From Dactylorhiza incarnata (taxonomy: Eukaryota; Streptophyta; Magnoliopsida; Asparagales; Orchidaceae): DNA of 64,000 nucleotides. Of the stretch, positions 142-63,100 are shown piece by piece. The stretch spans positions 3,162,001-3,226,000 of the forward strand of contig JAWHQI010000185.1 of assembly GCA_033032865.1 (NCBI GenBank). The letters run 5' to 3'. The position numbers and the translations under genes are program-made. The notes below the pieces were generated by a model that saw only the letters and a program-made list of their open reading frames with translations, was not told where the DNA came from and did no database searches. The number at the start of each line of letters is the position of its first letter. Positions within the stretch are counted from its first letter, which is position 1.

Positions 142-2680
142 GCAACGATCCTGAGATAAAGAAGTCCATTAACCCACTAGGCCACCCCTGCTAGCTAAAT
201 CAGTTTGCGGACAAACTGATGCAGCGGAAGCGGTGGTGTGCCCATGTGTGATTCACATTAAGTATGTCCTCTGTTTCCTACAGAAAGTGCCATCCTAAGC
301 CGAACTCGTACGCTTACATACAAATGCTGGCTCACCCCGAGACAGTAATTGGTATTCCCATTCCAACCATTAGAGTTGGTTTGGCATAATATTGATGCCA
401 ACCTAACTAGGATACCATTTTTGGCCGACTTAGCAGGATATGTCGTGACATACCCAAACCTTATACTGATCTTGGGGATGATTGGACCAAGCAATAAGTG
501 AACTTGATTGACTAAGGGAAGAGTTTAACGTGAGAGTAGATGCTAGAGACTCACACCCTGAGATTTCTATCCCAGATATGGAGTAATATTATCACCTTAC
601 CCAAAATATTAGGGCAATCTCAATGAGATTGGTGCCTGAAATCTATCATCAGCTTAGTAAGAGGCCACCAAGCATATCTTTTATACTGTATATGGATACC
701 TCTCACTTATATTTATGTAGAAGGTTTCATATGGAGAAGTTACGATAAGAATTCGGATCCAGAGAAGGCTCATTTTGGGACGAATGTGTTATGTTGATGG
801 TAGAAGAAACTCAGTCGAAGAGATATGGGGGCTTATCTCTTCATTTATTGGGCTAGCTATGTACCATCTTGGATCCCTTGAGGAGTTAGAATCCTTGTAA
901 TTTTATATATTGGATGTTTTGATCCTTGAGAGTTAATTCACCTTAAGCAAGGCAAACTGCTAAGGCCGTGTTTGGGTTGATAGAAATTTTATTAGCGGAA
1001 TATGAGAGGAAAAGCATTTTTGAAGATGACATTTTCTCTATATTGTCCCAAAATTATGTAGATAAGTTACGAGGGGAGTAGAAAATTTACACTTTGGGGA
1101 TATGCAGCGATGTTGTGATAACATTATAACTGGGGAGTTAATGAAATTTTATGCATGCATTGCGGGTATGATGAGACACTACCCCTCTTGGTGAACATTC
1201 CCTTAGTGTTATAAATACCTGACATTGGGAAATTAATAAATGTTAAGCGATGGAGTCAACAAGATTAATATGACTTGATTGATGATCTAAAATCCTAAAA
1301 GTTTTTATAAAATAAACATGCATGCCATGGATGATCGTTGGCAGGGATGGTAGGGCGCTTGGAATGGATTTGATTTAGTTTATCATATTGTGAAGTATGC
1401 CATACTTTTGGTAGTCTACATAACTCGTGTCGAAGGGAAATCATCCTGAGCCTTGCACCTTGGCTCTTGTTAAGTTCAAACATATATAAATGTACCAGGT
1501 GATTGGATGTTATTTGCACATGCTCTCATTACAATGAGATGCAGTTGGTCATCGTCGTAAAATTTAAATTTCTACATCACGGCTGGTATATGAGTGCGTC
1601 GATACGGGGATCTATAGGGTAAGAACTCTAAGTCGAGGAAGATATGTCCCTATGGTTGTGCTCATATGTGAGATGAATGTACCATATGGGCGGTGGAAGA
1701 AATTTTAGTCCAAAAATGTACGGGGGCTTGTCCCTTCATTTATTGGCCAATTTACGTGCCGACTTCGTTTTCCCGTAGATCCTATTTATTCGAATAGTAC
1801 GTGAATGATGATGATTGAATTCGTGATAACCTCTCAATACGGGTGAGCGCGTCAAGGGTGTTGAGACACGCCGTGAAGTGAACACGTGAATGGAATATTG
1901 AGGATAAGATGCATTTACTTATTTAAGAAGAGATGAATGTCTCTATACGTACAGGTAGGTGTACGTGTAATTGTATTGCCTCGACAAGGCAGTCTTCTAA
2001 ATGCTCTGTGCCGAAACCCAACCATTGGATAAGATTTATGTTCACGGTTTAGGAGCCCTTAAATGAAATGAATTAAATCACGAGATAAAAGTAGCACAAA
2101 TTTTTGAATCCGGTGCAAATCTAAGTTGAACTGGGAGTAGACAAAAGTAACAATTGACTCGAGGTCATGCGCTATTAGAAGGGTATGATGTGATTATAAC
2201 CCATGCAAGGTGTAGAGTCATGGATTCAACTTACTTTGAGCCTCGTTAGCGATTCGTAATATCACCAGAACCAATTGATAAGCATTATCAGATGATCGCA
2301 TGCGGAATTTGGAAACTATTTTGAAACATAAAAGCTTTCCGAGCTTAAACCCTTGAGCTGGTAATGTCATTTTTGGTAGTTGATGGGTTGAAAGGGCATA
2401 ATGTCATGGCAAGTACGGTGGGGCAATTGCCTCGGATGAGATAACATTGATGGAAGCGATTGATAATGATATGGATAATGATGGTTGTACTAGAAGATGA
2501 CATAAATGCTTGCTTCTACTTTTTTGTATATACATAAGAGAGACGATCTTGCGGGTACAATAACTGTTTGGGTATTTGAGGTTTGACCCAAGGATATGAC
2601 ATCGTGAATTTTATGGTTGATCACCCGTTTGACTTTGGCTACACGTTATTTGTATAACGATGCTTGGGATTGGAGGATTC
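142..2680 (+). mobile_element. E1 internal region, 5' part, non-coding
   Basis: No open frame longer than about 75 codons occurs here and no domain is recognisable. The region is relic internal sequence related to the E2 internal region: both contain gggggcttgtcc next to TTTATTGG-type motifs (about 830-852 and 1726-1746 here, 31507-31562 in E2). The last five bases, gattc at 2676-2680, are the left target duplication of W. Confidence 0.75.
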
Positions 2681-3903
2681 TGAAAGTGGAGTGTTTTAGT
2701 TCTTATTTACTTTATTAAATGATCTTGTTTAAGTTTTGTTTCCAAAATAATGATATAAATATGTATAAGAGTGCTGATTGCTGTAGGAGTGATATACACC
2801 AATAGTTTGAAGTGCATAAATAATAGACAGTAAAAGAAATAAAACAAACAAAACAAGAAGCACAATCCAGATAACACAAGATGTATAGTAGTTCCCCTCA
2901 ACTGGGTACATCTACTCTTCTACCCACTGGTAGGATTCCACTATGAGGTTGTTGATAAGGTGCCCTCACACCAGGTGAGCTGTTGATAAGGTGCTCTAAC
3001 CAAACTGCAGGTTTTTGCTAAGGTGCCCTGTCACCGAGAGTTAACTTTTGAAGGGAGTTATAACCTTGTACAAGAGAGGTAAGAAGGAGTGAAAAAGGGA
3101 AACAGAAAGTTTTGATGTTCTTCTCTGAATAAGAAGACTCTTGAAGATCCTATTGTGATGTTGAATGGATCTGAATTTTTATGTTGAAGAGCTCCCCCTG
3201 TCTGATATAGATTGATGACAGTTCTGGAGATCTCTCCTCTTGGTTGTATACGGCTTCCTTTTTTTTTATGCAGTGGTGATCTTCTCTATTTCTTTCTCCT
3301 TTTGCTTCTCCTTTATAATCTGAGGACCCTTGCCCTTAATTTGAAATCTTCTCTCGGGAAGAAGGAAAGAGCTTAGGTCTCCATCAATGATTTGACTCCT
3401 CGAGAAGATATCCTGCCGTTTCTGTTCATTAAAGCTGATATGCAACGGCTATAATATTTATTGATCTGCAACGACTAAGTTTAAATATTATAAAGAAAGA
3501 TGGCAGAGTGAAACAGTATTAGTCGAGCTCTGGATCGAATCTGTCGAGCGTCGTTCGACATTTGTCGAGCGCCGTTCGACATTTGTCGAGCGCCTTGTGC
3601 TGAGCAATTGTCTTCACTCGTTGACGGCTGAGACTGGCTGGATTTTGTCGAGCGCCGTTCGTTATTTGTCGAACGCTGAGACTGGCTGTCTGGAGAGCGG
3701 TTAAAGAATTGACAAATTCGTCTAACGTCGTTCGACAAATGTCGAGCTCCGTTCGACGAAATTAGAGAATAAATATTTTAGTTTATTTTATTTTCTCCGA
3801 TTCGATCACATTGTATTTAATTGAAATTACCTTGATGAAATTCAAGTTATTAGATAGATTTGAAGAATTGATCCTAACTCAAATCAAACCTAAGGTTCCA
3901 ACA
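2681..3903 (-). repeat. W LTR copy a (1223 bp)
   Basis: This is the outer 3' LTR on the minus strand. A TATA-like GATTATAAAG lies at 3311-3320. An array of TCGAACG/TCGAGC palindromic motifs lies upstream of it (about 3522-3761). Confidence 0.93.
3522..3761 (-). promoter_or_regulatory. W LTR motif array upstream of TATA box
   Basis: Repeated GTCGAGCG, GTTCGAC and CGCTGAGAC motifs form short inverted repeats about 200 bp upstream of the TATA-like site at 3311-3320 (minus strand). The array recurs in the other two LTRs. LTR copy c has lost about 21 bp, one motif repeat. It resembles the arrays in the U and T LTRs. Confidence 0.6.
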
Positions 3904-42532: not shown

Positions 42533-44279
42533 TGTTGGGAATAGTGCCAAACATTGTTCCTGATTTGAAGAAGTGCTCAGCTCAATGATAAGTGCAAGTT
42601 GTATTTAATGCTACATCTAGCTCACGCTTGCAGAGATCGACAAAGTACTTTAACTATTTCTGTAAGTACTATATATATTGTCAAGAAGAACAAGATTCGT
42701 CGAACGCAGAAGGAAGATCGTCGACCGCTGAGACTCAGCAAGATCGTCGAACTCATAAGGAAGATCGACGACTGTTGAGATTTGGCGTGTTCATCGAACG
42801 CAGAAGCAAGATCGTCGAACTCAGAAGGAAGATCGACGACCGATGAGATTTGGTGTGTTCGTCGAACGCAGAAGCAAGATCGTCGAACTCAGAAGGAAGA
42901 TCGTCGACCGCTGAGAATGGGCAAGATCGTCGAACGCAGAGAAGACGCAGTATCATCGACTTCATCAAAGTGGCCTTGTCGTCGAGAAAGAACAAACATC
43001 GTCGTGAAGAAGCCTTGTCGCTGAAAAGGCTAAGTATGACTGATGGCGTCGAACATCGTCGTAAAGAAGGCGTGTCGTCGAGAAATCAAGGTGGTTACGA
43101 CGACACAGTCAGAGATGGCGTATCGTCGTATATACAGAAGAGCAAGAGTATCTCATATCGTCGAGATACCAGTATGAGATGGAGAAGCAAGAACAACTAA
43201 AGATCTATCAAGGCGTAAGGGTTCGACAAAGTTATGACGTCGAGATATTGTTCATGATGTCGTAACAATGGAAGTATCGTCGAGACAGATTCAAATGTTG
43301 CAGACGCGCTGTCAGCATTTAATGTCGCCACCTGATTGTCCAATCAGCGCGTGCTCTTATGGAATGGGGCATCTGACATTAAAGGACATCACATGTTACC
43401 GTTATGTGGCTCACCTGTCCTATAAAAGGGAACAGTGATGCCCTATAAAATAACTAAGAAGAAAGAAAAAAAGAATGAGAAAGTATCTCGCTGCTACACT
43501 TCAATAGAACAGTATTCTCGGCGGAGAAGAAGAAGATCAAGTAGAGAACAAGCATCAAGTGCTCTCTAAAGAATCAGTCATCATCATCGACTAAAAAGTT
43601 GCCGATCAACACCAGGCAAAAGAAGTGAAGGCTGAAGAAGATCCAGTGCTGAATCTCCGGATTAAGAAGCTTCTTCTTCAACCTAAGGAAGCCAATCTTC
43701 ATTAGGCTAAAGTTGCCAATCTTCATCCGGCATAAGTAACAGTTATTTCTACTGTAATCTCTTGTAAAGGCTCGCGGGCCTATTTGTCTAGCTTGAGGGC
43801 AGGAGAGCTGTGAGGCTTGAGGGCCAGGGCAGGGCACTTGTGGGTGCGATTTGTCGAGCTTGCGCGCTTGGGGGCAGTAGGGGCTTGCGGGCCCAGGCTG
43901 TTGAGACTTTCGGGTCCGTGTTGTAGGGCTTGAGGGCCTGAGTGTTGAGTTTGCGGGCTCGGGGTAAGTAGGGGCCTGCGGGCCTAGGCTGTTGGACTTG
44001 CGGGTCTGAGGTGTAAGGCTTGAGGGCCTGAAGATTTGGCGGCGTTTGCCGAGCCTAGCACACTGCTAGGTAGGCGTAGAGGGAAAGAGGACTACTTAAG
44101 ACACCCTGTCTTGAAGAACCTCTATACATCGTTGTGTGTTTTCTGTGTCATGCTCTTTATTTCATAGATCTATTAATCAGGGACAAAGAACACCATAAAG
44201 GGAACAACTTAATTTGAAATATCTATTCACCCCCCCCCCCCCCCCTCTAGGTGATTAAGTAGACATCCTATAAACAACA
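42533..44279 (+). repeat. T 5' LTR (1.75 kb)
   Basis: It runs from TGTTGGGAATAG, like the S LTR start, to aaacaaca. A TCGTCGA-type motif array (about 42695-43280) lies upstream of the TATA box TATAAAAGG (43421-43429). Decayed repeats of ggcttgcgggcc/ggcttgagggcctg fill about 43770-44040, downstream of the likely transcription start. A run of 16 C is at 44230-44245. Confidence 0.9.
42695..43280 (+). promoter_or_regulatory. T LTR palindromic motif array
   Basis: More than fifteen TCGTCGA or TCGACGA motifs occur, plus ACCGCTGAGACT (42724-42735, the reverse of AGTCTCAGCGGT) and GTTACGACGACACA (43094-43107). The array ends about 140 bp upstream of the TATA box. Confidence 0.7.
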
Positions 44280-44293: not shown

Positions 44294-44360
44294 TAGGTTG
44301 TTCAAAGAAAAGCTTAACAGCTTGAACAGATCTGCCATTGGGTGTCCAAGTATCACAGCT

Positions 44361-45836
44361 ATGGAGTCAAGGATAGTTGTTTATTCTAGAGAGAACTTTG
44401 CCCTTTGGAAAATTAGAGCAAGAACTTACATGGAGGCAATGGATCCCAGAATGTTTTTAATTACTCAAAAAGGACCCTCCATAATAAAAGTTGAGAGTCT
44501 CCTAGCCAGCCTGGACAAAGAAGCCAAAGATATTCTTGTTGATGCAGTTGACATCTCAACATTTCAGAAACTAGCTCACTGCATAACAGCAAAAGAGATG
44601 TGGGACTCCCTATCAATCCTTATGGAAGGATCAGAAGAAGAAAGAAGCAAAGCAGCTAAGAAGAAAATCAGAACACTGAATGACAGTGACTCAAGCTGTT
44701 TAGACTCAGAAGAGAAAAATCAGTTTGGACTGACTGTCCTATCTGAGTCAGAGGAAGAAGTCAAGGATGAAATCCCACCTGAACAAGTATGCATAAGAGC
44801 TCCTATATCTACTTCAGACTCAGAATCAGAGACGAGCTCATCTGGTAATGATGACTGGCCCAAGTCATACAATGACCTCTTAGAAGATGCTCAAGATGTT
44901 GTGCAAGGAGCAGGATGCAAAAATCTCCTCTCTTCAAGCAAGAAATCTTGATCTCTCAGAGAAAGCAGAAAGGCTAACTCTAGAGAATGCATAGTTTTGT
45001 CAACTCAAAAAGGACTTCAAGGCAAGCTCCAACCTTGACTTGATAGACAAATTTGGAAAAACTCTGAAGGCATTGATTGAAAGCAAAGAGCTGTGCTGCT
45101 CACTAACCAGAGAAGTAGTTCTTCTGAAGAAGGACAAATTTCATCCCAAAGTTTTGAATCTAAAAATGACAACATCAGAAGGGTGGAGAGTAAACTCCCC
45201 TTTATGGTAAAGCCTATGTCAAGCTCCTCCAAACCAGAAACCTCTCCTCTACTAGTAAATGGTTGCTGCTCCACTCAGAAAAGGGAGCAGGTATGCTTTA
45301 AGGAAGACAGATCAGGCAGACCCTGTAGGAAGAAGGCTAACTTGAGGAAGGTAAGCTCGCCCTCCAACAAGAATTCTGGGCAATCCAATCTTTGGTATTT
45401 CAAGTTTGGGAACTCCACAAGTAGAGCAAATATCATGCCAAAAACCACAAAGGTACCTCAAGAAGTCATGAGGAGGCAGAAACTTGCTAAGCCCAGAGAA
45501 GAGAAGAAATTCTCAGAAAAGACTAAATCCAGATGGAAAATAGTGAATGGTGACAGCAAACATCATATCTACCATCAGCACAGTTCACCTTCTCTGCCTC
45601 ATTCATTTGTTCACACACAAAGAACTACTGCTCATACAGTCAGACAGAAAAGAAGATATAATAGGTATGAATGTTGGTGTTGTGGAAAGACTGGGCACTT
45701 TGCAATTGATTGTTGGTACAATCCAACTGCTCCAAGGGTAACAAATGATAAACTGGCAAATAATCTTTTTCATAATCACTATGCATACCCTAGGCAGTTA
45801 TATCCAGTATGCCCGTCAAAGCTAACAATTTCCTAG
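44361..45836 (+). pseudogene. T gag (Sirevirus), internally deleted and frameshifted
   Basis: The ATG at 44361 is followed by RENFALWKIRARTYMEAMD and CITAKEMWDSLSILMEGSEE, which match the U gag N-terminus. The capsid C-terminal part after MEGSEEERSK is missing. A coiled-coil segment around 44930-45120 is readable only in other frames. The frame resumes at about 45120 and ends with the knuckle CWCCGKTGHFAIDC (about 45676-45717), the counterpart of the S knuckle. The gag stop TAA is followed by TTTTGCAGGT. Confidence 0.85.
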
Positions 45837-46091
45837 GACCCAAATTCACTAGGGTTCCTAAGGGCGTGTAATCATATTTTGCAGGTAGTCCAAGTGCCCA
45901 CCAGAAGCAAATCTGGGCCCTGGACAAGGTGGCTGTTCTGACCCACTGTCAGAACAGCAAAGTTTATTTACCAACAAAACTAATGCAGGTATCTTACTAA
46001 AAGAGGGCTAAAAGTTGGATAGGGTTGGTGCAAAAGGATAACTCCCAAGCAGAGCGAAAGAATGTCTTAGGCAGACATGTAAGGAAGAATT
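45837..46091 (+). mobile_element. T gag to env-like spacer, remnant of pol start
   Basis: The first 60 bases resemble the gag/pol junction of S (TTGCAGGT, then AGT.CAAGT, then a stretch readable as QIWALDK). The rest of pol is absent. No other gene is seen. Confidence 0.6.
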
Positions 46092-46310
46092 GACTCGTCA
46101 ATACAAGAGGTTGTTACGACGACACAATATACGTTACGACGACAAAGATTCGAGCTAGGAGGATAAGAATCCAAGGAGCATTTCGACAACAATAACCACG
46201 TCGGCAAAATATAATCGAGCTATTTTTATCAGGATTGGATAGGTCCATCGGAGCCGTCTGATCGGATTTTTATGGTACGCGCCTCTTCATCTACCGACAC
46301 TATAAATAGA
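46092..46310 (+). promoter_or_regulatory. T internal promoter candidate upstream of env-like gene
   Basis: GTTACGACGACACA (46113-46126), also present exactly in the T LTR, is followed by gttacgacgacaaa (46133-46146) and other TCGAC/CGTCG motifs. TATAAATAGA is at 46301-46310, 114 bp upstream of the env-like ATG. The order array, TATA box, gene copies the LTR promoter. Confidence 0.6.
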
Positions 46311-46414
46311 GTGAATGCTCGAAAATAAAAATTACACTATCATTTGCCCTAAGACACTTCGTCGAAAAACCCTCGCCTCCTTTATCATGCTGCTTTCTCT
46401 CTCACTCTAAATCA

Positions 46415-47664
46415 ATGGCTCCCAAGAAAGAAGAAGTGATCTCAGGTTGTGAACTTCAGCGAGGAGGCTTCAATGTCTGCTCCGACGAAATCAGATCAGT
46501 AATAGGATTGCTGGAGGCATCAGGACTAGAGTATGTCCTATGTAAACCCTCGGTTCTTCTCCACCGGGAATTGGGCGAGTTCTTTGCCGAAGCAAAATTC
46601 GACCACACTGAAACTCGGATAAGATCCATGGTGGGAGGCAAGAAGGTCAAGATATATGCAAAGAGCCTTGGAAAAGCACTGAATCTTCCAAGCATCCAAG
46701 GGGAAGAGGAAGAAGAAGAAGAGCTGACCTCTGAGGATATGTCAGCAAGCTACACATGGTGCGGACACACAGGGAAGACCTACCGGTCTATCAAGAGAGC
46801 TGAATTCAATCAGAAGGGGAAGCAGCTAGCCGACATTGTTGGCAAAGTGTTGTTGTGCAAGCCTGGTTCCCACGACCGCATATCTAAAGACATGTTTGCT
46901 GTCATGGCCAGAATAATCCACTCTAAGAAAACCAATTGGAGTGAATTCCTCTTCCTGAAAGTGAAGAACACCCTGAAGTCCCCCTCGTATAGATGAATAT
47001 TAACCCTTTTTCTTCTAAACATCAGGGTGATACATTGCATAAAAGAATTGGAGTACCTCTTCATTACTCCAAGAAATTGGATGCAAAGATGCTGGACCGA
47101 TGGGATAGGTCCATCCCCAAACCATCCTCTCATGCCAGCCTGCTCCCAAGAAACAGAAGAAACCAGCAACCCAAATAAATACCTCCGAAGAAAAAGGGTC
47201 ATCAAGCAGCTCTGATGACATTGAACCACCCCCACACCATCCCACTCCATCCGGAGGAGAAACATCCACCAAAGAAAATGCTCTTGTATCAATCCATGAA
47301 CCTGCTCCCACAGAGGTTATTGAAAATGCTGGAAACACCAACTTGGGGAGTGTTCCTGCTAAGGGGAATTCCCAACTTGGGAGCTCAGCCCAAGATGCAG
47401 AGATGTTTGATGGAGAGCTCTCAGCTGGAGGCTCATATCAGGAGAATCCACAGGTTGGGGGGGAGACCCAACTTGGGTACTCTGTCGTAGATGATCAAGG
47501 AAATGAGCCAACAGCAGACATCACTCTCTCAGACTGCCGAGAGCTAACTGTAGCAAGCAAAGTCGTGCATAGCTCCATGTGAGCCCCTGCCAGAAGGTTC
47601 TAAGGGGAAAGCCAAGGTCACAACGCACATCAGTGAGGAATACTCTGAAGATGTCAGTGAAGCA
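46415..47664 (+). pseudogene. T envelope-like protein gene, frameshifted, cut by S
   Basis: The first frame (46415-46996, 193 aa) starts MAPKKEE and contains FNQKGKQLADIVGKVLLCKP, GSHDRISKDMFAVMARIIHS and a glutamate run. The same block is found in S (FNQQGKLLSDIVGKAILCKP). Later parts (GVPLHYSKKLDAKMLDRW near 47055, and a Ser/Pro-rich stretch near 47180-47640) lie in other frames, so there are at least two frameshifts. Sirevirus elements are known to carry an env-like gene after pol; its function is unproven. No signal peptide or membrane segment is visible in what remains. Confidence 0.78.
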
Positions 47665-47939
47665 TGATAGTTTATATAGGTGTAGTCAATAATACATAGA
47701 GGGGGAGGGGATGAATAGGTTCTACTTATTTTCTTTGTTTAAACCTAATGTTTCAAGCTGCAGAAAATACAAGCACAGAAAACACACAAGGATGTATAGA
47801 GGTTCCTCAAGACAGGGTGTCTTGAGTAGTCCACTTTCCCCTTCACCTTTCTAACAATGAGTTAGACAAGGCCCACAAACTCCAATCTCGGCTCCTTGAG
47901 CTTACACCACAAGTTCCTCAGAACTTCTCAGATCAAGAG

Positions 47940-48110
47940 TGATCCTACCTCAGGCACAGTAGCCCGATACTCAGGCTCAGCAGCCCTACACCTCAGGCTC
48001 AACAGCCCTACACCTCAGGCTCAACAGCCCTACACTCAGGCTCAGCAGCCCTACACCTCAGGCTTAACAGCCCTACACCTCAGGCTCAACTGCCCTACAG
48101 CTCAGAGTTA
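47940..48110 (-). repeat. S LTR 20-22-bp tandem repeat in R/U5
   Basis: Five to six near-perfect copies (cctcaggctcaacagcccta on the + strand). The T LTR has a decayed relative at 43770-44040, so the repeat is an ancestral trait of this Sirevirus lineage. Confidence 0.85.
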
Positions 48111-48675
48111 TGAACTCCTACCACTCAGAAATCCCAAAGATTTCCTACCTCAGACCTATCAAGAAGTCCTACCACTCAAGCTGTCAACACAGCTTTACAC
48201 ACAGGCTCAACAGCCTTTTACTGAGTCAACAATGCCTTACAAAGATGTAATAGAGTTTGAGTTAGATACAAAAGACAAAAGGATTTACTCTTAGGTCTTC
48301 TGGATCCTTTCTTCAGATCTGAAAACAATAGCTTCAGATTTGTGTCCCCTTGATCTTCTCCTTCAGCAAAGCAGAAGATCAACTTGCCCTTCTTGAGTTT
48401 GTACAGGAAGAGCTAACTAATCTCCCTTAGAAGATTAACTTCAGCTGCAGAGAATGACTTCAACTGGCTGAATCGTGAATGCTCGATTGCGGCGTGTAGC
48501 AAAAGCTTCTCAATAGAACAGTACTCCTTGATGTGCCCTAACATCTTCTTTTATACCCCCAGAAGGCTTCAACGGCTATATCGATCCTCCTGACACAGTA
48601 TGGGGCTGATTTGACTTGCGTTTCGCTCTCAAATGTCATTTGCGCCAAAAGCAGATCCCGTCAAAACATTTGGAT

Positions 48676-48870
48676 CAGTCTCAGCGGTTGGGCTGAGACA
48701 GCATCCTGTCTCAGCGGTTGGGCTGAGACGGCTTCTAGTCTCAGCGGCAGCTCCAGTTCCCTTCTCAGAGGTTGCTCCAGTCTTCTTCTCAGTGGATTCG
48801 CTGAGACGGCTCCTCGTCTCAGCGGTTCTGGCCCATCGCCTCAGCGGTTATGCTGAGACAGGTCTTCATC
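48676..48870 (-). promoter_or_regulatory. S LTR palindromic motif array
   Basis: GTCTCAGCGGTT-GG-GCTGAGAC-type palindromes occur at 48678, 48708, 48738 (partial) and 48816, with degenerate copies between. The array lies about 120 bp upstream of the TATA box on the minus strand. Confidence 0.7.
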
Positions 48871-49039
48871 TCCTTGTGGATGATTTCTTCTTATCTACGG
48901 CCATGTTTGGCCCTTCCTTTTGAGTCACCTGTGCCTGTATATCCTACACAAGTATATCTTTGTTAAATACAATATGTCCTTAGCATTGAGAGTGATGCCT
49001 CTTCAAATCAAGGTAATATTGAGGGCAATATTCCCAACA

Positions 49040-51292: not shown

Positions 51293-52889
51293 TGATGCGT
51301 GTCGGCAAGTGCACCGGTCGCTGTCAAGTAATAAATGTGGAGAGTGGCCTCCCCGAATGTCGGTCTCTTGAGGAATGCAGGTTGGGTGAACGAGATGCGT
51401 AGCGTGACTCTTGTTACACGAACGAAACACACATGAAAAAGGGGGTTTTTGGTTGGTTTGTCCTAATCTTAACAACAGTAAAAGAGATGCGGGTCGAAAG
51501 CACCGCTTCGCAAGGTGAGATGGATGCAACGGCCGCGATGCCGTGCTTCGTGAGGCGGATGGAGTGTGTTCTAGCGCGAAAGGGTGAGGGTCGTAAACAC
51601 CTCTTCACAACCGTCGTTAGCTCTTGCTAACACGGAACAAACACCTTGCGTGCGCGTGCGAAATGGAGTGAATCACAACCGAACCATGAAGAACAACAAG
51701 GAAACATTCATTTCAACAAACAACATCACAAAGTTCGAGTTTACAAAGCATAACGAGTACAATGAAAGAAAGAAGAAAGGGATAACCGATAGTGAAGACT
51801 AGCGGCCGTTCACGGCCGGAATGGTAGGTTGTCGGGCTACCTCCGGGCTCGGGCGGACTATGCTTCCGGCGTAGAGAGCTGTCACAATCTCCCTACGTAG
51901 CTCCGTCGTCTTCGACTTCAGGTTTCTTCTTCTTCTTCTCACCGGGCGGAATGAGAGAATGGTTGCTTGGAGGCTTGCGAACGATGGAGAACACTCACGG
52001 ACAATGGAGGAGGTCTTGGAATGGATGGAGGAGGCTTCCCCTTGCGTAGAAGATGAAGTGGAGGCGTCCCAAGGTGGTGGTCGGCGGCGTACGGAACAGG
52101 AACTCCGCTCCCGGCGGCTTGATAATGCCCTAAAATCGGAACAGGCGTTTATATAGGCGATGAATTAAATACTGCGCACGGTCATTGGCGCACGACCAGT
52201 GGTCGTGCGCACTGGAATTCTGCGATCGTGCGCACTACCTGGGTGGAACCTGCAAGATACAAAATTATAAAATAAAATGTTCGCACGACCAGTGGCGCAC
52301 GACCGGTGGTCGTGCGCACTAGCGTCGATGGTCATGCGCAATAGATGAAACAGAACTCATAAAATTACTGTTAAGTGCGCACGAACAGTGGCGCACGACC
52401 GGTGGTCGTGCGCACTGGAGTTGATGGTCGTGCGCACTACAGTAAACAGAACTCGGAAATTAAATGGTAAGTGCGCACGAGCAGTGGCGCACGACCGGTG
52501 GTCGTGCGCACTGGCATTGATGGTCGTGCGCACTGCACCAAACAGAACTCATGAAAAAGGTGTTAAGTGCACACGATCAGTGGCGCACGACCAATGGTCG
52601 TGCGCAATAGAACCGACGATCGTGCGCAGTGTTCCTATGCAGAATTGCACCGGGAACACTAGCACGACTCCTATTCCAGGCACAACCACAAATCTAGCCA
52701 CTGAAAGTGGCACTTAACAGCGCATGAAAACTACTAAAGACAATAAGCATAAAATCACACCAAAGTGGGCCTAGAAGTGCACCTAGCATGGATTATCAAA
52801 TATAATCTATAACAAGGCTATAGTGCGGTGAATTGACTAAATAACGGACCGGATGAGTCCATAAATGTGTATATGATCAGGACTCATCA
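51293..52889 (-). repeat. E4 3' LTR (1597 bp)
   Basis: Compared with the 5' LTR it lacks a short stretch near 51660 (gtgagtgagtgg) and has few substitutions. On the minus strand TATATAA (about 52149-52156) lies just downstream of the palindrome array at 52174-52640. Confidence 0.95.
52174..52640 (-). promoter_or_regulatory. E4 LTR palindrome array (GCGCACGACC/GGTCGTGCGC)
   Basis: About five units of roughly 100 bp each contain GCGCACGACC-(1-3 nt)-GGTCGTGCGC, a near-perfect palindrome, with half-sites between. The array ends about 20 bp upstream of the TATA box on the minus strand. The other LTR copy is at about 57990-58460. Confidence 0.75.
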
Positions 52890-54664
52890 CACCCCCAGAC
52901 TTAACTGTTTGCGCGTCCCGAGCAAACGAATCCGACAGAGTGTGAAAACGATAATTAACATAGAGAATTACACAAGGGAGTACGGTGCGAAGTAACATAC
53001 GCATGCGAGTAGAGATTCTAGCAGAAGGAGATTCTAACTATGCTAACTAATTTACATGAGTATTAAAGCGTAAGTAAAGATTTAGTTATACTCAGTTGGT
53101 GAATTATGAAGAATTTGACGATCATGCCCGGTGTGAAAGTGACAAGATACTGAGGCGGGTGTTGCAAAAGATCGGGGCTTAGGAATAACTCCGCTGAAAT
53201 CCATCAACGTCGTGAACCATACGCTTGCCCGGTCACACTCTCTCCACGGCGCTAGCAAACTCGCAAGTCAAATCAGTAGGGCTTTTAGGATTAAGACGGG
53301 GCTTAGGTTACGGTATGATATTCAAAGTTAAACACGATGGCTACGCAACCCAAGTGAGCTAAAGAACGCTGCACCACTCAAGACCAACAAACAATGCTCG
53401 TGTGACACACCCCCAGACTCATCATGAAAACCAGGTGTGCACACGGCCTACTTCACAAATACCAACAGATTTTCTATTTAGCTCGGAAGGATTTTTTCAA
53501 AATACTCTTTTTTTTTCTTTTAACATCTTTTACTTCTTTTATATATCCTCCGGTGGGTTCAAAATCACCAGATAGACTTTATTTTCTCTTCATAACACAA
53601 AGATTCCACACACCACACAAGTTGAGAATTATGAGCGTAGTTTAAAACAATTTGGTTGCGGGTGTAGGATAGGCTTCAGGCTTTGGTTGATGAAGAGGAG
53701 CTGAACAAAGGATTGGTAGGCACAAATTTGGCTTGCAACGGTGAACGAAATGGACATGGAATAACAAAGCTCAAACTAGCCAAAGGGTGGCCTACATCAT
53801 GTTTAACTCGACGAGTCCCTCTCACCCATGCTTCGAGAGTCGCTTGGGGCAAGTTCTTAGCCCACGAGAAAGGTAAACCTTCCTCCCGACTCGAGCAACA
53901 CACGACTAGTAAACGCACACACACAACACCGGGTTATCGTCAATTTCATTCAAATTCACCACTTGAGTATATTAAATCTAAATTTGCGCAGAAATACTAA
54001 ACATAGATTAGATGCATAAAGAAAATCTAGTTCTACTCAAATTCTACCATAACATGCGAAGTGACTAGAACACTACATGAGTCAACATCGCACTCCAAAT
54101 AATAATTCCTACGTTAACAATCTATTTCACATTCCGACCAAAATAGTTTAAACGGAACAACGACAAAAAGATAAGCACGCACTCAAGTGGGTGAAGTGGT
54201 GTGTGAAGCATGAAAACAATGATAATGACTGGAATAAATAAGAAACAACCTTCTAGTATGCAGTGCAACTCGTGCACAGTGGGTGACAACATACGCTCCC
54301 CCAGACTTAAGCTAAACAATATATCTAGAAATTTGAAGCAAAAAGAGGGGAGGAAGTGTTACCCAATGCTCAGAATTGAGCATACCAGACGATCGGCGTT
54401 TATGATCAAGAATAGTCCGCAGCATCCGCACCATCGAACACAAAACCTGCAAGCACAAACTCAAAACAACCAAAGCATATGCAAAAGCTAAATTAAAAGG
54501 AGTTAGATAAAAACTAAAAAATCAGGAAATCTGGGCTGTCTCCCAGTAGCGCTTTTATTTAACGTCCTTAAGCTGGACCAAATACCTGTATTAGCATTGT
54601 CTAAAAAGTGCAGAACTTAAAAAGAAATGTTCAGAAGCAGTTCACCACATCAACTAAACACAAA
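52890..54664 (-). mobile_element. E4 3' non-coding region with three polypurine-like tracts
   Basis: The functional tract GTCTGGGGG (52892-52900) abuts the LTR. Identical motifs lie at 53410-53418 and 54298-54306. The spacing (518 and 888 bp) closely matches V (524 and about 906 bp once insertions are removed). No RT, integrase or other gene is present. Confidence 0.82.
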
Positions 54665-56995
54665 TCAGCTAAAAGCGCTCTTATGGTGCGCTTCTCCCGT
54701 AGCACGTAGGCGGGAGGTGAAGGCTTTAGGGCCAGCACCGGTATCATCCAATGCTCCCCTAACCTCCGCCCTCTTGCCACAGAGAGCGGCAGCACGAGCG
54801 TCGCGCAGAAGTTTTTCTTGTTTAAGTTTGGTGACAGTCGGAGACTGCCACCGTTGAGAATTCTCAGATTTCTCCACTTTAGCGGTGGGTGGCGTCACTT
54901 CCGGTATCGCGGTGACCACCGGATCGGCCCAGGAGATGGAGCGCTTAGATAGTTCATTACAAGATTCACCACAAGAAGATAAATAATCAGCATCCCTAAC
55001 TAAATCCAAGTCAACGTTTCCCGAACTGTAGTCTTCCTCCTTCTCGGAGTCGAACTCTTTCCGGAAGTCAACCTCTTCTTCCTCATCCGACTGGAGCTCC
55101 TCCTTTCCTCCTTCACTTGTTTCTTGATCATGTTTCTTTCCTGCACAGCTTAGAAATTCATCAGAAATAACGAGAGGGGGGGGAGTGGATGTGTCGGCTG
55201 TAGCTTCGAGGAGAGTGGGCTGCGGCGCCTTGTTAGGTAGGAGAACACAACCCGTAGCGAAGTCAAGGGTGGCGCCGCTCTCCTTCAAGAACGGCACGCC
55301 CAAGATAGGGATGGATTGATTTTCCTGGGGGCCCAACACCTGAAAGTCCGCGACCACAGTCGTTCCCTCAACTATTACTTCCACATTTCTCACTTCCCCC
55401 TCAGATTGGATAATTGTCCCGTTAGCAAGAATAAGCGATTTCCTTTCCTCCGTGTTCATCTCAAGTTGTAATTTCGCAACATCTTGCAGTGCAATGACGT
55501 TGCGGGAGGAACCGGAATCGCATAGAGCTTTTGTTTCAACCTTATTGATGGAACACGAAATCACCAACTCACTTGGATCAGTCTCAACCACATTGCCAAG
55601 ACTCTTCCCTTGATCTATTGGGTTCTTTTCAGTGTTGCTAGGAAGGGTCCCCTGCGACCGCTCGGTTAGCACTTGGGCCAATTGGCCCAACTGCGTTTCC
55701 AAGTTACGCATGGATGCGGTTTGATTCACCATATTAGAGTTGGCCGCTTGCATGAACTTCTCCATCATTTCCTCCAAATTACTCTTTTTTTGGGTTGGGG
55801 GACCTTGGTTATAATCCGGGTGTGGTGGCCTCGGTTGGCTCCCGGAGGCGTAAGCATCATTTTGATGCTGCCCCGGTGCCCATCGTTGGCCAGGCGTGTT
55901 TGGGTTCCACGAGAAGTTCGGGTGACTTCTCGCTCCCGGATTTTAGGCGTTATTAAAAGGCGCCCCCTTGGATTGATTTCCTACATAATTAATAGATTCA
56001 TTAAGAGTTAGGTGAGCGAAATCACCTGCCACGTTGTTCCCTGAGCATTCATACGCGTGGTGGCCTCCGCCTCCACATCCTTCACAAGTAATGATAGCAG
56101 CAGGTGGGGATGGAGATGGGAGAGAGTCAACCATGAAGAGTCCTCGGCCGCTTCTTGGAGCGTTTCTCCCGGCAGTCCAGAAGGTACTGTGGGAAGCGGT
56201 GTCGCGCAGAATTCGAAGGGCCTCCTCAGGAGTGTGGTTCATCAGAGTACCACCAGCAGCAGCATCGACCATTGCCCGGTAGTTAGGCTCGATCGCAAAG
56301 TAGAACGTTTCAACCACATTCCAAGGTTGGAGCTCGTGGCCAGGACAACGGCGAAGGAGATCGTTGAGGCGCTCCCATGCTTCAGCAAGGGTCTCTTGGT
56401 CAAGTTGACGAAATGTCGCGATCTCCCGTCGCAAGCTCACGATCTTGTCCACAGGATGGAACTTAGCCAGGAATTTGGATGCGAGGGCATCCCAAGTTGC
56501 AGCAGTCCCGGGCGGAATGGAATGGAGCCACACCTTCGCTTTTTTGCGGAGTGAGAAGGGAAACAGTCTGAGCTTGACTGTGTCGTCAGCAATCCCTGCG
56601 TAGCGGAAGGTTCCGCAAATATCAGAAAATTCTGCCAGATGCAGATGCGGGTCTTCGCTGGCCAGCCCGGAGAATTGAGCGTTGTTCCGGATGATGTTCA
56701 AGATTGCTGGCTTAATCTCGAACTGATTATTCATAATATTTGGCCCGAACCCCGGATACACACTCCCAGCAGTTGGAGTGGTGTAGTCCCTCATCGTGCG
56801 GGGTCGAGGCCTAGCTGCCTCCTGCTCATTCCCAGGCTGATGTTCCCCCACGCCGGGCATTCTCGGATCAACATCATTTGGGTCTACCTGATCACCCATG
56901 GCCGCTTGCGCGGCAGCAGCGCGCCTTCGTGCGCGAGCGGTCCGTTCAATCTCAGGATCGAAGGGTACGAGTTCACCTGCGACCTGTCTCTGCAT
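54665..56995 (-). pseudogene. E4 gag-protease, interrupted by one TAA
   Basis: The ATG at 56993-56995 opens a basic N-terminus, then an Athila-type capsid region (NNQFEIKPAILNIIRNN, DDTVKLRLFPFSLRKKAKVW, LRREIATFRQLDQETLAEAW). A CX2CX4HX4C knuckle (CEGCGGGGHHAYEC) lies near residue 305. A single TAA (55943-55945) follows in a region that otherwise stays open in the same frame. The protease has ALCDSGSSRNVIAL near 55535 and PILGVPFLKESGATLDFATG near 55280. A long acidic tail ends the frame at 54665; I do not recognise it. Confidence 0.9.
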
Positions 56996-57073
56996 GCACT
57001 ATCACAAACAAGAAAAATCAAAAACAACTGCTCGTATGACGACAGTCACAACACGGGACGTTACACGCCTGCA

Positions 57074-57092
57074 TTCCCCGGCAACGGCGCCA
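57074..57092 (-). other. E4 primer-binding site (tRNA-Asp)
   Basis: On the minus strand TGGCGCCGTTGCCGGGGAA, identical to that of V, lies 6 nt after the 5' LTR end. Confidence 0.94.
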
Positions 57093-57098
57093 AAAACT

Positions 57099-58705
57099 TG
57101 ATGCGTGTCGGCAAGTGCACCGGTCGCTGTCAAGTAATAAATGTGGAGAGTGGCCTCCCCGAATGTCGGTCTCTTGAGGAATGCAGGTTGGGTGAACGAG
57201 ACGCGTAGCGTGACTCTTGTTACACGAACGAAACACACATGAAAAAGGGGGGTTTTGGTTGGTTTGTCCTAATCTTAACAACAGTAAAAGAGATGCGGGT
57301 CGAAAGCACCGCTTCGCAAGGTGAGATGGATGCAACGGCCGCGATGCCGTGCTTCGTGAGGCGGATGGAGTGTGTTCTAGCGCGAAAGGGTGAGGGTCGT
57401 AAACACCTCTTCACAACCGTCGTTAGCTCTTGCTAACACGGAACAAACACCTTGCGTGCGCGTGCGAGTGAGTGAGTGGAAATGGAGTGAATCACAACCG
57501 AACCATGAAGAACAACAAGGAAACATTCATTTCAACAAACAACATCACAATATTCGAGTTTACAATACATAATGAGTACAATGAAAGAGAGAAGAAAGGG
57601 ATAACCGATAGTGAAGACTAGCGGCCGTTCACGGCCGGAATGGTAGGTTGTCGGGCTACCTCCGGGCTCGGGCGGACTATGCTTCCGGTGTAGAGAGCTG
57701 TCACAATCTCCCTACGTAGCTCCGTCGTCTTCGACTTCAGGTTTCTTCTTCTTCTCACCGGGCGGAATGAGAGAATGGTTGCTTGGAGGCTTGCGGACGA
57801 TGGAGAACACTCACGGACAATGGAGGAGGTCTTGGAATGGATGGAGGAGGCTTCCCCTTGCGTAGAAGATGAAGTGGAGGCGTCCCAAGGTGGTGGTCGG
57901 CGGCGTACGGAACAGGAACTCCGCTCCGGGCGGCTTGATAATGCCCTAAAATCGGAACAGGCGTTTATATAGGCGCTGAATTAAATACTGCGCACGGTCA
58001 TTGGCGCACGACCAGTGGTCGTGCGCACTGGAATTCTGCGATCGTGCGCACTGCCTGGGTGGAACCTGCAAGATACGAAATTATAAAATAAAATGTTCGC
58101 ACGACCAGTGGCTCACGACCGGTGGTCGTGCGCACTAGCGTCGGTGGTCGTGCGCAATAGATGAAATAGAACTCATAAAATTACTGTTAAGTGCGCACGA
58201 ACAGTGGCGCACGACTGGTGGTCGTGCGCACTGGAGTTGATGGTCGTGCGCACTACAGTAAACAGAACTCGAAAATTAAATGGTAAGTGCGCACGAGCAG
58301 TGGCGCACGACCGGTGGTCGTGCGCACTGGCATTGATGGTCGTGCGCACTGCACCAAACAGAACTCATGAAAAAGGTGTTAAGTGCACACGATCAGTGGC
58401 GCACGACCACTGGTCGTGCGCAATAGAACCGGCGATCGTGCGCAGTGTTCCTGTGCAGAATTGCACTGGGAACACTCGCACGACTCCTATTCCAGGCACA
58501 ACCACAAATCTATCCACTGAAAGTGGCACTTAACAGCGCATGAAAACTACTAAAGACAATAAGCATAAAATCACACCAAAGTGGGCCTAGAAGTGCACCT
58601 AGCATGGATTATCAAATATAAGCTATAACAAGGCTATAGTGCGGTGAATTGACTAAATAACGGCCCGGATGAGTCCATAAATGTGTATATGATCAGGACT
58701 CATCA
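57099..58705 (-). repeat. E4 5' LTR (1607 bp)
   Basis: It has the same ends and palindrome array (about 57990-58460) as the 3' LTR, with few substitutions. It is followed by the duplication gttgg. Confidence 0.95.
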
Positions 58706-59622
58706 GTTGGCTCAGGATTGGGCACAACACTTCCTTGGGGCTCCTCATTTCTTCTTGTCCTGAGGACATCTTCATTATCCATGTTCATTTGGTTGCTGCC
58801 AGATCTATGATCAGACCCATGATTATCTTCATTTTCAGACCCATTTGACTTTGAGGATGAGTCTGATTTGTGCTGAGATAAATCTTTCTTCTTTTCCTTT
58901 GCCATATATGGCAGGCTCATAGGGAGCACTCTGGAGAATCTATCTAGAGTCTTAATGTCCATTCTTTTCAGATAATGGAGATTTGACCCCTTTGAGTTTG
59001 CAAAGGTTTTTGAATAACTATTCTGTAGGTACAGAGATAGTATTCTTTCCATATTGGGGGCTTGTAGAGATTCCTTTATCCTTTGAAAGATAACGTCTCC
59101 CCAGGAGGTTCTCTCGGACAGAATTATCCTTGTCATTAATTCAAACATGAACTGTGAGACAGTGTCATGTGAACCAGGCTTGCATAGAATAGCTTTGCCC
59201 ACAATATCAGACAACAGCTTCCCCTGTTGATTAAAGAACTTCCTCCTTAGACAACTGGTCTTAGTATCACTGTATCCTGTCCACTTTAGGGCAGTCCTCT
59301 TATCCTTTTCAGATATTTCCTCCTCTTCAGATTTACTACAGGGGTTTAATTTTAGCCCCTTCTCCAACCTTTAAGTAGTAATCTTTATCTTCTCACTTCC
59401 TATCTTGGACATCAGTATGCTTTTGGAAGGAGACAGTTTGACATGGTTGAACCATTCCAGAACTTCAGCTTTGAGAATGCAACATGGTTCAGACAGCATG
59501 TGCACCAAAACTTGAGCTTCCAATAGATGAATCACTTATCGTATTTCTTCAGAGGCATGAGAGAATCCATTTCTTACTATTTCATACCCCTCCAGGAGAT
59601 CTTTCGAGCTTTTTGGCACCAT
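58706..59622 (-). pseudogene. S envelope-like gene, 5' part
   Basis: The ATG at 59620-59622 is aligned with the T start. The protein shows the conserved block FNQQGKLLSDIVGKAILCKP and GSHDTVSQFMFELMTRIILS. Two in-frame TAA codons lie in the N-terminal 90 codons, where T is open. The frame passes directly into the E4 target duplication (58706-58710) and resumes at 51292 in phase. No signal peptide or transmembrane helix is seen at the N-terminus, which argues against a classical viral envelope protein. Confidence 0.8.
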
Positions 59623-59720
59623 GGAAGCAGAGAATCGATGCGATGAGACGGAAAAGAAGATGGATCGTCTCGACGGCTAAGGGTTTGGTTTTTTGGTGTG
59701 GTTTTAGGTTACAGTGTGTC

Positions 59721-60000
59721 TATTTATAGAATTTTAGTTTCGTTTTTATTAACCCTAGGCTTTTAGACTTAGTTACCTTATTGTGTTAAGGAGTTTTGGG
59801 TTAATTATCAGATTTTATATTGAACATACCCCATCTCAGCGGTTCAGCTGAGATGGAGACCTAGGCCGCTGGGATAGTAAAGTGTCAACCGCTGGGACAG
59901 TTTACTCGTCTCAGCGGTTCAGCTGGGACAGTGAACTGTCAACCGCTGGGACAGTTTCCCCATCTCAGCGGTTCAGCTGGGATTTTTCTCAGCTGATTCA
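59721..60000 (-). promoter_or_regulatory. S internal promoter candidate upstream of env-like gene
   Basis: On the minus strand TCTATAAATA (59721-59730) lies 108 bp upstream of the env-like ATG. Upstream of it (about 59829-60000) is an array of CTCAGCGGTTCAGCTGAG-type palindromes, with GTCTCAGCGGT at 59908-59918, as in the S LTR. The array lies between the end of pol (60174) and the env-like gene. Confidence 0.62.
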
Positions 60001-60173
60001 GCTGAACATACTCCTTCATTTTAGCTGATCATAGGGTTTAGACCTAATGTAGATATTTTGGCTTAAGATGGGTCCTAGTCATGTCACTAAGTTGTAGTGT
60101 ACAGTAATGTAAAGTTTGATAATTCACCATTCATAATCAACAATAGTGACAGCTATTACTCATACATTTACAA

Positions 60174-63100
60174 CTATTCTACACTAAGCATGCCAAGATC
60201 AATTTTGAAAGCATTGAATTTGGATTCATCCAGTGGCTTTGTAAAGATATCAGCTACTTGTTTGTCAGTGGGGACAAATTCAAGACAGATGTCTTTACAC
60301 TTTACATGTTCTCTAATAAAATGATATCTAATCTCTATGTGCTTAGTCCTGCTATGAGAGACAGGATTTTTAATAATAGATATTGCACTGGATGAATCAC
60401 AATACAAAGGAGATCCCCTTACCTTGAGGTTGTAATCCTCCAACTGATGCTGTGTCCAAAGGAGTTGTGCACAACAGCTACCTGCAGCAATGTATTCAGA
60501 CTCAGCTGTGGATATTGCCACACTGGTTTGTTTCTTGCTGCTCCAAGATATCAATCTTCTCCCTAGGAACTGACAAGTACCACTTGTACTCTTCCTGTCT
60601 TCTTTGCAACCTGCAAAATCTGCATCTGAAAAGCCTGTTAGTTCAAAGTCATTATTCTTAGGGTACCAAAGGCCAAGATGCAAGCTGCCCTTAAGGTATC
60701 TCAATATTCTCTTCACAGAGGTGTAGTGAGATTCCTTGGGACAGGCTTGATACCTAGCACAAACACATGTAGCATACATAATGTCTGGCCTACTAGCAGT
60801 CAAGTATAATAGGGATCCAATGATGCATCTGTACATGGACTCAACAAAGGCCTTTCCCTTTTCATCCTTTTCTAATGATACATTAGACCCCATGGGTGTT
60901 CTCATGGTGGAGGCTGATTCCATCCCAAATTTCTTGATGAGCTCCTTAGTGTACTTGGTCTGGGAGATGAAAATTCCATCATCAGACTGTTTCACTTGGA
61001 GCCCAAGGAAATATTTGAGCTCACCCATACTGCTCATTTCAAACTCCCTCTGCATTAGATTGGTAAATCTCTTGCAGAGGTTGTCATCAGTAGACCCAAA
61101 GATTATGTCATCAACATAGATTTGGACTAAGAGACACTTGCCCCTTGTTTCCCTAAGAAACAATGTGCTATCAATCTTTCCCCTCATGAACTTGTTATTG
61201 AAGAGAAAGTTGGACAAAGTCTCATACCAAGCTCTTAGAGATTACTTGAGACCATATAGTGCTTTCCTAAGAAGATAAACATGAGAAGTTAGGGTTGGAT
61301 GCACAAAACCTGAGGGTTGTTCAACATATACCTCTTCCTTCATGTCTCCATTTAGAAATGCTGATTTGACATCCATCTGGTAGACTTTGAACCCCTTGTG
61401 GGCAGCATAGGCAAGGAATAGCCTAATTGCTTCCAACCTTGCAACTGGTGCAAAGGTTTGATCAAAGTCTATACCTTCCTCTTGCCTGAATCCTTTGGCT
61501 ACCAATCTGGCCTTGTTCTTGATGATTGTACCATTCTCATCAAGCTTCTTCCTGTATACCCATTTAGTCCCAATCACATTGTGTCCCTGAGGTCTTGGCA
61601 CCAGCTTCCATACTTTGCATCTCTTGAATTGTAGGAGCTCTTCTTGCATTGCTTCAATCCAGAAGGTGTCTTGATTGGCCTCTTCAAACTTCTTGGGCTC
61701 CATTTGAGAAAGGAAGCTCAAGAATAGTGCTTCATTATGAGCTCTGCTTCTTGTCAATATTCCTTGGGTATGATCCCCAATTATTAGCTCTCTTGGATGA
61801 TCTCTTAGGTGCCTTGCAGCAGCAGGAAGAGGGTCCTCTGGTGGCTGTGTTTGTTCCATTGGTTCAGCTATGACTTCATCTTGTAGCTCTTCTTCTTCAG
61901 GAATTGCAGGAGCTGTCTTTGTGTTGCTGCTGCTGGGCTTGTCTTGGACAGTCAGCTCATGCATCCCTTCTTCATTTCCTGTCACAATAGAAGAACTAGA
62001 CCATTCTTTGTAGAGAAGGCTGGTCTCATCAAATACAACATGCATAGATTCTTCTACAACATGGGTTTTCTTATTATAAACTCTATAAGCTCTACTATGT
62101 GAGCTATATCCAACAAGAACTCCCACATTCCATTTTTCTGCAAACTTTGTTAGCTGATATTTTCCATTATTTTAAATGTAGCATTTGCAACCAAAGATCC
62201 TAAAGTAGGAAATTGTAGGTTGTTTGCCTTTCAGAATCTCATAAGGAGTTTTCCCAAGGACCTTATTGATGGAGGCTCTATTGAGAACATAACAGGCTGT
62301 ATTGACTACCTCAGCCCAGAAGTATTCTGGGAGTGAGGAGTCACTAAGCAATGTTCTCCCAACTTCTATCAAGGTCCTATTCCTCCTCTCAGCCACACCA
62401 TTTTGCTGTGGAGTCCTTGGGGAGGAGAACTCTTGGGTGATACCAAATTCTTGACAAAATTTTGTCATGGCTTCAGATTGAAATTCTGTACCATGGTCAG
62501 TTCTAGTCCTGACCACAGTACATTGTAGATTATTCTGAATAGCCTTGACATAATTTATAAAGATATGTAAGGTATCTGACTTCTTCTTAAGGAAGAATAC
62601 TCATGTATACTTTGAATGATCATCTACAATCACCAAGGTATACAACTTCCCACCTAGGCTCTGAATTGGCAAAGGACCAAACAAGTCCATGTGCAATAGA
62701 TATAAACACCATTCAGTATCCTTGGAGCCAATACTTTTAAAGGTGGTCCTAGTTTGCTTACCCATTTGGCAAGCATGACAGGGACCACTTTTAACACATT
62801 TTAGATTAGGACTATTTCTAACAAGGTGTTTAGAAAATAATCTATACATTGTCTTATAGTTAATGTGGGCAAGTCTCTTGTGCCATTGGACACAGAGAGA
62901 CTCACTTTCATTAGCTACAAGACACACAGAGGAGATAGAATAATTGCAAATGAATTCTAAGCAATAAACATTCCCACTCCTAGTGCCTGAGAGAATGGTC
63001 TCCAAGTCTTTAGACTTTTTGATCAAGCACTTGTCATTGTGGAATTCAATGACATAGCCTAAGTCACATAGTTGGCTTATGCTTACAAGGTTGTGTTGCA

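Follow-up and report, generated by a model that had tools for sequence, protein, structure and literature searches.

The window analysed here, 64,000 nucleotides of Dactylorhiza incarnata DNA, holds two LTR retrotransposons, one inside the other. Element T, on the forward strand, is interrupted by element S, on the reverse strand, and a 5-bp duplication, AAGCA, flanks S on both sides (Table 1). The 5' LTR of S lies just beyond the window, in the fetched locus L028, and is 95.8% identical to its 3' LTR; the 3' LTR of T, also outside the window (L028 5071-6832), is 93.0% identical to its 5' LTR. The RVT_2 match in S pol scores 72.3 bits against a cut-off of 31.6, as in a Copia-type pol, and the Retrotran_gag_2 match in T gag is weak (21.5 bits, below its cut-off of 27). 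By reading, S has the PPT AGGGGGAGAT followed by TGTTGGG, so that the Sirevirus PPT AGGGGGAG stands before its 3' LTR; the PPT of T, GGGGGAGATTGTTGGG, likewise of Sirevirus type, is present in 8 of 10 fetched LTR regions. The PBS of T and of a further family, X, is TATCAGAGG, which differs from the Sirevirus TATCAGAGC in its last base. The S spacer starts past the pol stop codon and is 551 nt long. In the window copy the S env-like gene is broken by an in-frame stop and split by a nested element, in which gag-type ORFs lie between direct repeats (51293-52631 and 57099-58447). Both direct repeats of this element (51293-58447) contain 96-bp spaced tandem repeats.

Table 1. Features of elements S and T in the window (positions are those of the window; distances are relative to the env-like ATG).
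Feature	Position	Strand	Basis or remark
T 5' LTR	42533..44279	+	LTR pair comparison
T LTR array TCGWCGA	42690..43260	+	20 CGWCG in U3, plus two CCGCTGAG
T LTR TATA box CTATAAAAGG	43420..43429	+	
T gag C-terminal part, CCHC knuckle, directly before the spacer, without pol	45093..45836	+	ORF and tblastn
T spacer motif pair GTTACGACGACA	46113..46145	+	
T internal TATA box CACTATAAATAG	46298..46309	+	conserved across T copies
CGTCGA in T env leader, at about -55	46360..46365	+	25/31 copies
T env-like ORF	46415..46993	+	ORF; weak Pfam match
S 3' LTR	47667..49039	-	LTR pair comparison
S LTR TATA box GGGGTATAAAAG	48548..48559	-	
S LTR palindrome array, units CTCAGCGGTT(GG/AT)GCTGAG plus weaker ones	48676..48870	-	
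S env-like start codon	59620..59622	-	gene broken in this copy
CCGTCGA in S env leader, at -54	59670..59676	-	18/20 spacer-selected copies
S internal TATA box TCTATAAATAG	59720..59730	-	kept in other S copies
S spacer palindrome array, units CTCAGCGGTTCAGCTGRG	59829..60008	-	motif reading; pi 0.089
S pol 3' end (RT/RNase H)	60174..61217	-	ORF; Pfam RVT_2 E 5.9e-20

The T env-like protein is about 40-44% identical to those of the full-length S env copies compared and 39% identical to the S env of the window; its Pfam match, to Transposase_32, reaches 28 bits, below the 45-bit cut-off. Judged by their substitutions, both genes are under purifying selection. The median dN/dS of T env is 0.13 over 55 pairs, a value biased downward by the choice of T copies on their env protein score (of 35981 first-look candidates, the 150 best were scored); S env copies chosen by spacer DNA give pN 0.032 and pS 0.115 (pN/pS 0.28, 171 pairs). 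No in-frame stop falls in the first 570 nt of S env in 15 of 19 other fetched copies, by a count that left out inserted columns, and many of the at least 150 S env protein matches listed are open without stops. A protein search with T env and a viral contig search with S pol or T env found no relatives outside this genome. A sampling of Pfam PF20167 was left unused: its best 150 rows scored 143-162 bits against 28 for T env, and from this score and the available part of PMC11728184 we judged these rows to be Athila-type.

A preliminary description of this locus had spoken of pol-env spacers in general. In T it is gag, not pol, that precedes the spacer. A tblastn search recovered the C-terminal zinc knuckle of T gag at all 10 fetched T loci; at 9 of these a gag end could be read 449-699 nt before the env ATG, and in two of the 9 the knuckle contains a stop. 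Since the gag end is found directly before T env, the T spacer lies between gag and env. No pol lies between these genes in the sampled T copies (window 44298-46993; L029-L038), which were picked by env similarity, and pol-bearing T-like copies could exist beyond the sample. That the env-like gene is retained even without pol bears on the role of this gene.

Symmetric motifs recur in the LTR and before the env-like gene of both elements. The S arrays lie upstream of a TATA box both in the LTR and in the pol-env spacer. The word CAGCGG/CCGCTG occurs 25 times in the 64-kb window, and 11 of these occurrences fall in the two short S arrays, 6 in the spacer (59837-59966) and 5 in the LTR array (48682-48842). 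For T, a different array type, again matched between LTR and spacer, had been claimed. The types do differ, TCGWCGA in T against CAGCGG in S, but they are not cleanly separate, as the T U3 also holds the S word in two copies of CCGCTGAG. The match within T stands in part: the 14-mer GTTACGACGACACA is present both at 43094 (LTR) and at 46113 (spacer), and common 9-mers are in excess (below), but the spacer array is thin, the window copy having 4 CGWCG of which one falls in the leader, and only 2 of 8 T U3 regions contain the long 14-mer form GTTACGACGAC, although each of the 8 has 2-3 copies of the core TACGACGA. Over 31 T copies (the window, 10 fetched copies and 20 more), the spacer has a mean of 2.97 CGWCG per 420 bp, leader included, versus 0.70 when shuffled; between -420 and -125, all 31 copies have at least one and 23 at least two.

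Each spacer shares more 9-mers with its own U3 than do dinucleotide-shuffled sequences: 18 versus 1.9 in S and 16 versus 3.7 in T, values that none of 300 shuffles reached in either element. This excess depends on word length and for T is gone at k=7, where 8 (S) and 53 (T) of 300 shuffles reach the observed sharing, compared with 1 and 5 at k=8. For crossed pairs, the S spacer and the T U3 have 12 9-mers in common versus 3.6 (3/300 shuffles), an excess due in part to the CCGCTGAG of the T LTR, and the T spacer and the S U3 have 5 versus 2.2 (45/300). The palindromic array upstream of the LTR TATA box that belongs to the RM definition of Sireviruses is found in S, T and X, and further motif copies 5' of ENV in S, T (where they are thin), X and another family, Y.

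The copies compared argue, strongly for T and moderately for S, for an internal TATA box held at a fixed distance from the env ATG and conserved beyond its surroundings. Its first T is at 46301 in T, 114 nt before the ATG as previously given, and at 59728 in S, 106 nt before the ATG (59622-59620); the motifs, TATA boxes and distances given earlier for both elements proved right within 1-2 bases. CTATAAATA is found 114-117 nt before the ATG in 10 of 11 T copies (10 from the env hit list plus the window) and in 27 of the 31; one further copy has TTATAAATA, and TATAAATA stands at the expected place in 28 of 31, with 3 copies lacking it. We then considered seven copies picked for env divergence (L032-L038), which are 66-91% identical to the window over the last 350 bp, although by spacer identity L030 (0.897) is slightly more diverged than L032 (0.914), which was used. 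In these seven the TATA 12-mers rank top of the 338 windows in the last 350 bp before the ATG, with none better, and they are still the most conserved over all 31 copies. In the seven, the TATA box lies inside an invariant run of 21 bp, the next longest being 7 bp (0/5000 permutations). The T LTR TATA box, intended as a positive control, does not rank high: in 5 diverged copies 67 of 650 windows are better conserved, so that the internal TATA box stands out more and the control is not clean. The CCAAT box of the T LTR (TGTCCAATCAGC, window 43337-43348) is better conserved than the TATA box of that LTR (0.98 versus 0.88, 5 diverged copies).

The 140-bp regions upstream of env in S and T align no better than shuffles (51.5 versus 43.1, sd 8.4), and a leader homology beyond the TATA and CGTCGA words was rejected for this reason. 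Despite the unalignable upstream regions, both elements have CTATAAATAG, with the TATA box at -106 in S and -114 in T. The CGTCGA of the S leader is weaker in copies chosen by env protein (11/20).

TATAAATA lies at -105/-106 in 20 of 20 S copies chosen by spacer similarity, window included, but these copies are about 95-97% identical and their retention of the box therefore says little. It is also kept in 18 of 20 copies chosen by env protein (38 of 40 overall). In these env-selected copies, pi is 0.156 in the pol-proximal part of the spacer, near the env pS of 0.1435 (codons with several changes being counted in a simplified way); it is 0.089 in the array (0.074 outside CpG), 0.082 from the array to the TATA box, 0.059 in the TATA region (20 columns, with a wide interval of 0.015-0.112) and 0.106 in the leader. 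The stretch from -560 to -380 is more diverse than that from -380 to -1 (0/5000 permutations). By this profile the S stretch from array to ATG is under constraint and evolves more slowly than the pol-proximal stretch; within it the TATA 12-mer ranks no higher than the top tenth, behind 49 of 529 windows. The T footprint, the kept S TATA box and this constraint lend support to the internal promoter that the preliminary description had read here.

That description had also suggested an LTR origin of the spacer array, with gene conversion or recombination keeping the two in step. The S unit reads CTCAGCGGTTnnGCTGRG. Among 20 S spacers, nn is CA in 59 units and TA in one, with no GG or AT (the CC and CT counts there are one site read on the opposite strand); in 16 S LTRs it is GG in 29 units, AT in 16 and AA in one, and a weaker unit read on either strand accounts for the CC, TC and lone CA counts there. 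A second set of 20 spacers gave CA 38, CC 6, CT 2, TA 1 and CG 1, with GG and AT again absent. Sharing with the copy's own LTR did not differ significantly from sharing with the LTRs of other copies, either in S (15 copies, k = 8-10, p 0.07-0.83) or in T (8 copies, p 0.18-0.29; the window and 7 of 10 fetched copies, the other 3 dropped as having no readable U3). On the side of copying are a 16-mer, GAACCGCTGAGACGAG, common to the S spacer (59905) and the S LTR (48813), a slightly higher own-LTR sharing of S at k=10 (16.0 versus 15.3, p 0.067), and a small apparent lean of T subfamily A spacers to A LTRs and of B to B. Against these, the differing linkers in both spacer sets and the lack of a significant own-LTR preference speak against LTR-spacer gene conversion, and an array copied and kept matched in this way is very unlikely; the comparisons largely refute it at copy and family scale, although an ancient single copying event may have taken place. 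As there is no sign of exchange, selection for the same factor or an old common origin accounts for the matched arrays better than ongoing homogenisation does.

Three more groups, V, X and Y, were drawn from DNA beside S copies and are a biased sample of Sirevirus families. One X copy (5' LTR at L014 2195-3498, 3' LTR at L049 450-1762, 98.6% identical) has its gag end 421 nt before the env ATG, and the single Y copy (env ATG at L051 5752) has its gag stop 687 nt upstream; neither has pol between. X arrays are matched in LTR and spacer: the X spacer shares 38 9-mers with the X U3, versus 3 with each of the S and T U3. X and Y have the same motif, GCGTCGA/TCGACGC, and the Y spacer resembles its own U3 (27) no more than that of X (29), the Y LTR (L052, about 1650-3000) being placed only by its similarity to X and its array. 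By reading, the X palindromes TCGACGC/GCGTCGA also occur inside the gag reading frame (L014 5300-5640). No TATA is found between -160 and -60 in 21 of 21 X copies, all of which have CTTAAAAA in its place, inside a conserved block from -180 to -41. No TATAWA lies within 400 bp of the ATG in three V fragments or the Y copy; these have AGGTAC, at -19 or -21 after a pyrimidine-rich stretch (V 3/3 fragments, Y 1 copy), which looks like a splice acceptor. The V fragments (L019 1636-2500, L020 189-1100 and, on the minus strand, L022 7012-5900) show pol, a TCGA/CGTCGA array and then a non-env ORF, and the AGGTAC at -19 in all three suggests splicing. No LTR was found for V. An array thus stands before the extra gene in each of the five groups encountered, and an internal TATA box in S and T only.

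We consider the arrangement real and probably functional. With the observed position and conservation of the stretch, its motif resemblance to the LTR and the absence of exchange signs, the reading we favor, with somewhat better than even confidence, is that the env-like gene of S and T is preceded by an internal Pol II promoter that is under selection and has a factor in common with the LTR. Such a promoter would consist of upstream symmetric motifs, dense in S and thin in T, and a TATA box whose distance to the env ATG is about 105-117 nt, with a leader of about 65-90 nt. One host factor would drive transcription of the genomic RNA as well as of a separate env mRNA, and the spacer motif would resemble that of its own LTR for this reason; selection for the factor, not exchange of sequence, would keep the two alike. 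The transcription start, the factor and the separate env mRNA are what we infer here, and among the explanations that the preliminary description offered a shared transcription-factor need appears the best. Counting against an internal promoter are the lack of a TATA box in X, V and Y and motif matching that is not exclusive.

The env-like protein might be made without such a promoter, from a spliced RNA initiated in the LTR, as in retroviruses and Bagy-2, the conserved region then being splice acceptor and leader. An AG at -63, within an invariant CCCTAAG in 11 of 11 T copies, could be an acceptor, as could the AGGTAC of V and Y; but the strongest T footprint is the TATA box and not this AG, and by reading the window S has no pyrimidine tract plus AG just before its ATG, and we regard splicing as unlikely, though with a real chance of being correct. 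Translation from genomic RNA by readthrough or internal entry, with the TATA box as a chance A/T-rich remnant, has a precedent in the stop-codon suppression of SIRE1 (cited in the available text of PMC2829016). It is highly improbable here, as spacers of about 420-700 nt separate the genes (S 551; T 449-699 in 9 copies; X 421; Y 687) and the TATA box does not evolve like a remnant.

The arrays could also be structural elements of RNA or DNA (hairpins, packaging signals, silencing targets or decoys) unrelated to an internal promoter. The S spacer array, if transcribed, folds far better than shuffles (z -4.1 and -6.1 for overlapping stretches), and part of the S LTR array likewise (z -4.0); in X, diversity is mostly lower in 20-bp blocks containing palindromes than in the intervening ones. 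A 2016 study is said to have dealt with maize Sirevirus LTR palindromes and siRNA. The T spacer, however, reaches a z of only -1.6, the S arrays stand upstream of a TATA box in both places, and the S constraint extends past the array through the TATA box; we hold a purely structural role to be quite unlikely.

The arrangement had been thought undescribed, but Bousios et al. 2010 (PMC2829016) already reported palindromic repeated motifs both in the LTRs of Sireviruses and upstream of their ENV. In the available text of that paper, motifs precede ENV in nine env-containing elements and 77 of 79 linker copies; an internal promoter is argued for, with none conclusively identified, and the idea is credited to Peterson-Burch and Voytas 2002. 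The likeness to the RM described there is close: LTR motifs upstream of the TATA box, again 5' of ENV, with one consensus per element. The motifs of PMC2829016 have, in the part available, a symmetric CGG-CCG core except in Tnd-1. The cores found here are different: TCGWCGA in T, GCGTCGA/TCGACGC in X and Y, and CTCAGC/GCTGAG arms around CGGTT in S. Beyond what the available text of PMC2829016 holds, we add the conserved internal TATA box, the constraint profile and the sampled T copies without pol. A search of literature made up mostly of non-subscription papers found none that places a TATA-type promoter in front of a Sirevirus env. What is new is thus the evidence, drawn from copy comparisons, that selection appears to preserve the stretch including its TATA box; a footprint at a fixed place, and constraint from the array on, turn the 2010 proposal into a narrow positional prediction.

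Grande is a Ty3/gypsy element. In maize, its gene23 resembles the present case as an extra ORF between pol and the 3' LTR with its own promoter, but it is antisense, and the available text of PMC7264820 mentions no matching LTR motif array. The same text has the 5' LTR directing transcription of gag, pol and the env-like gene. Bagy-2 is alike in having a separate mRNA for its env-like gene, made by splicing and not from an internal promoter (as cited in the available parts of PMC2829016 and PMC7264820).

The gag-env Sireviruses without pol (T, perhaps X and Y) might be non-autonomous families that borrow pol and keep a selected env-like gene, each with its own LTR-matched internal promoter. 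The env-like product would then act preferentially on its own element, and the paired motifs of LTR and env promoter would switch together from family to family. We offer this tentatively, as a doubtful proposal.

The env-like genes of the X type fall into two classes among the at least 150 matches listed. Twenty-five have an open frame of at least 162 aa, most of them longer than 500 aa, and the other listed ones stop at 94-124 aa. The env break at L014 6349-6700 resembles a short GT...AG intron, which is absent from the open class.
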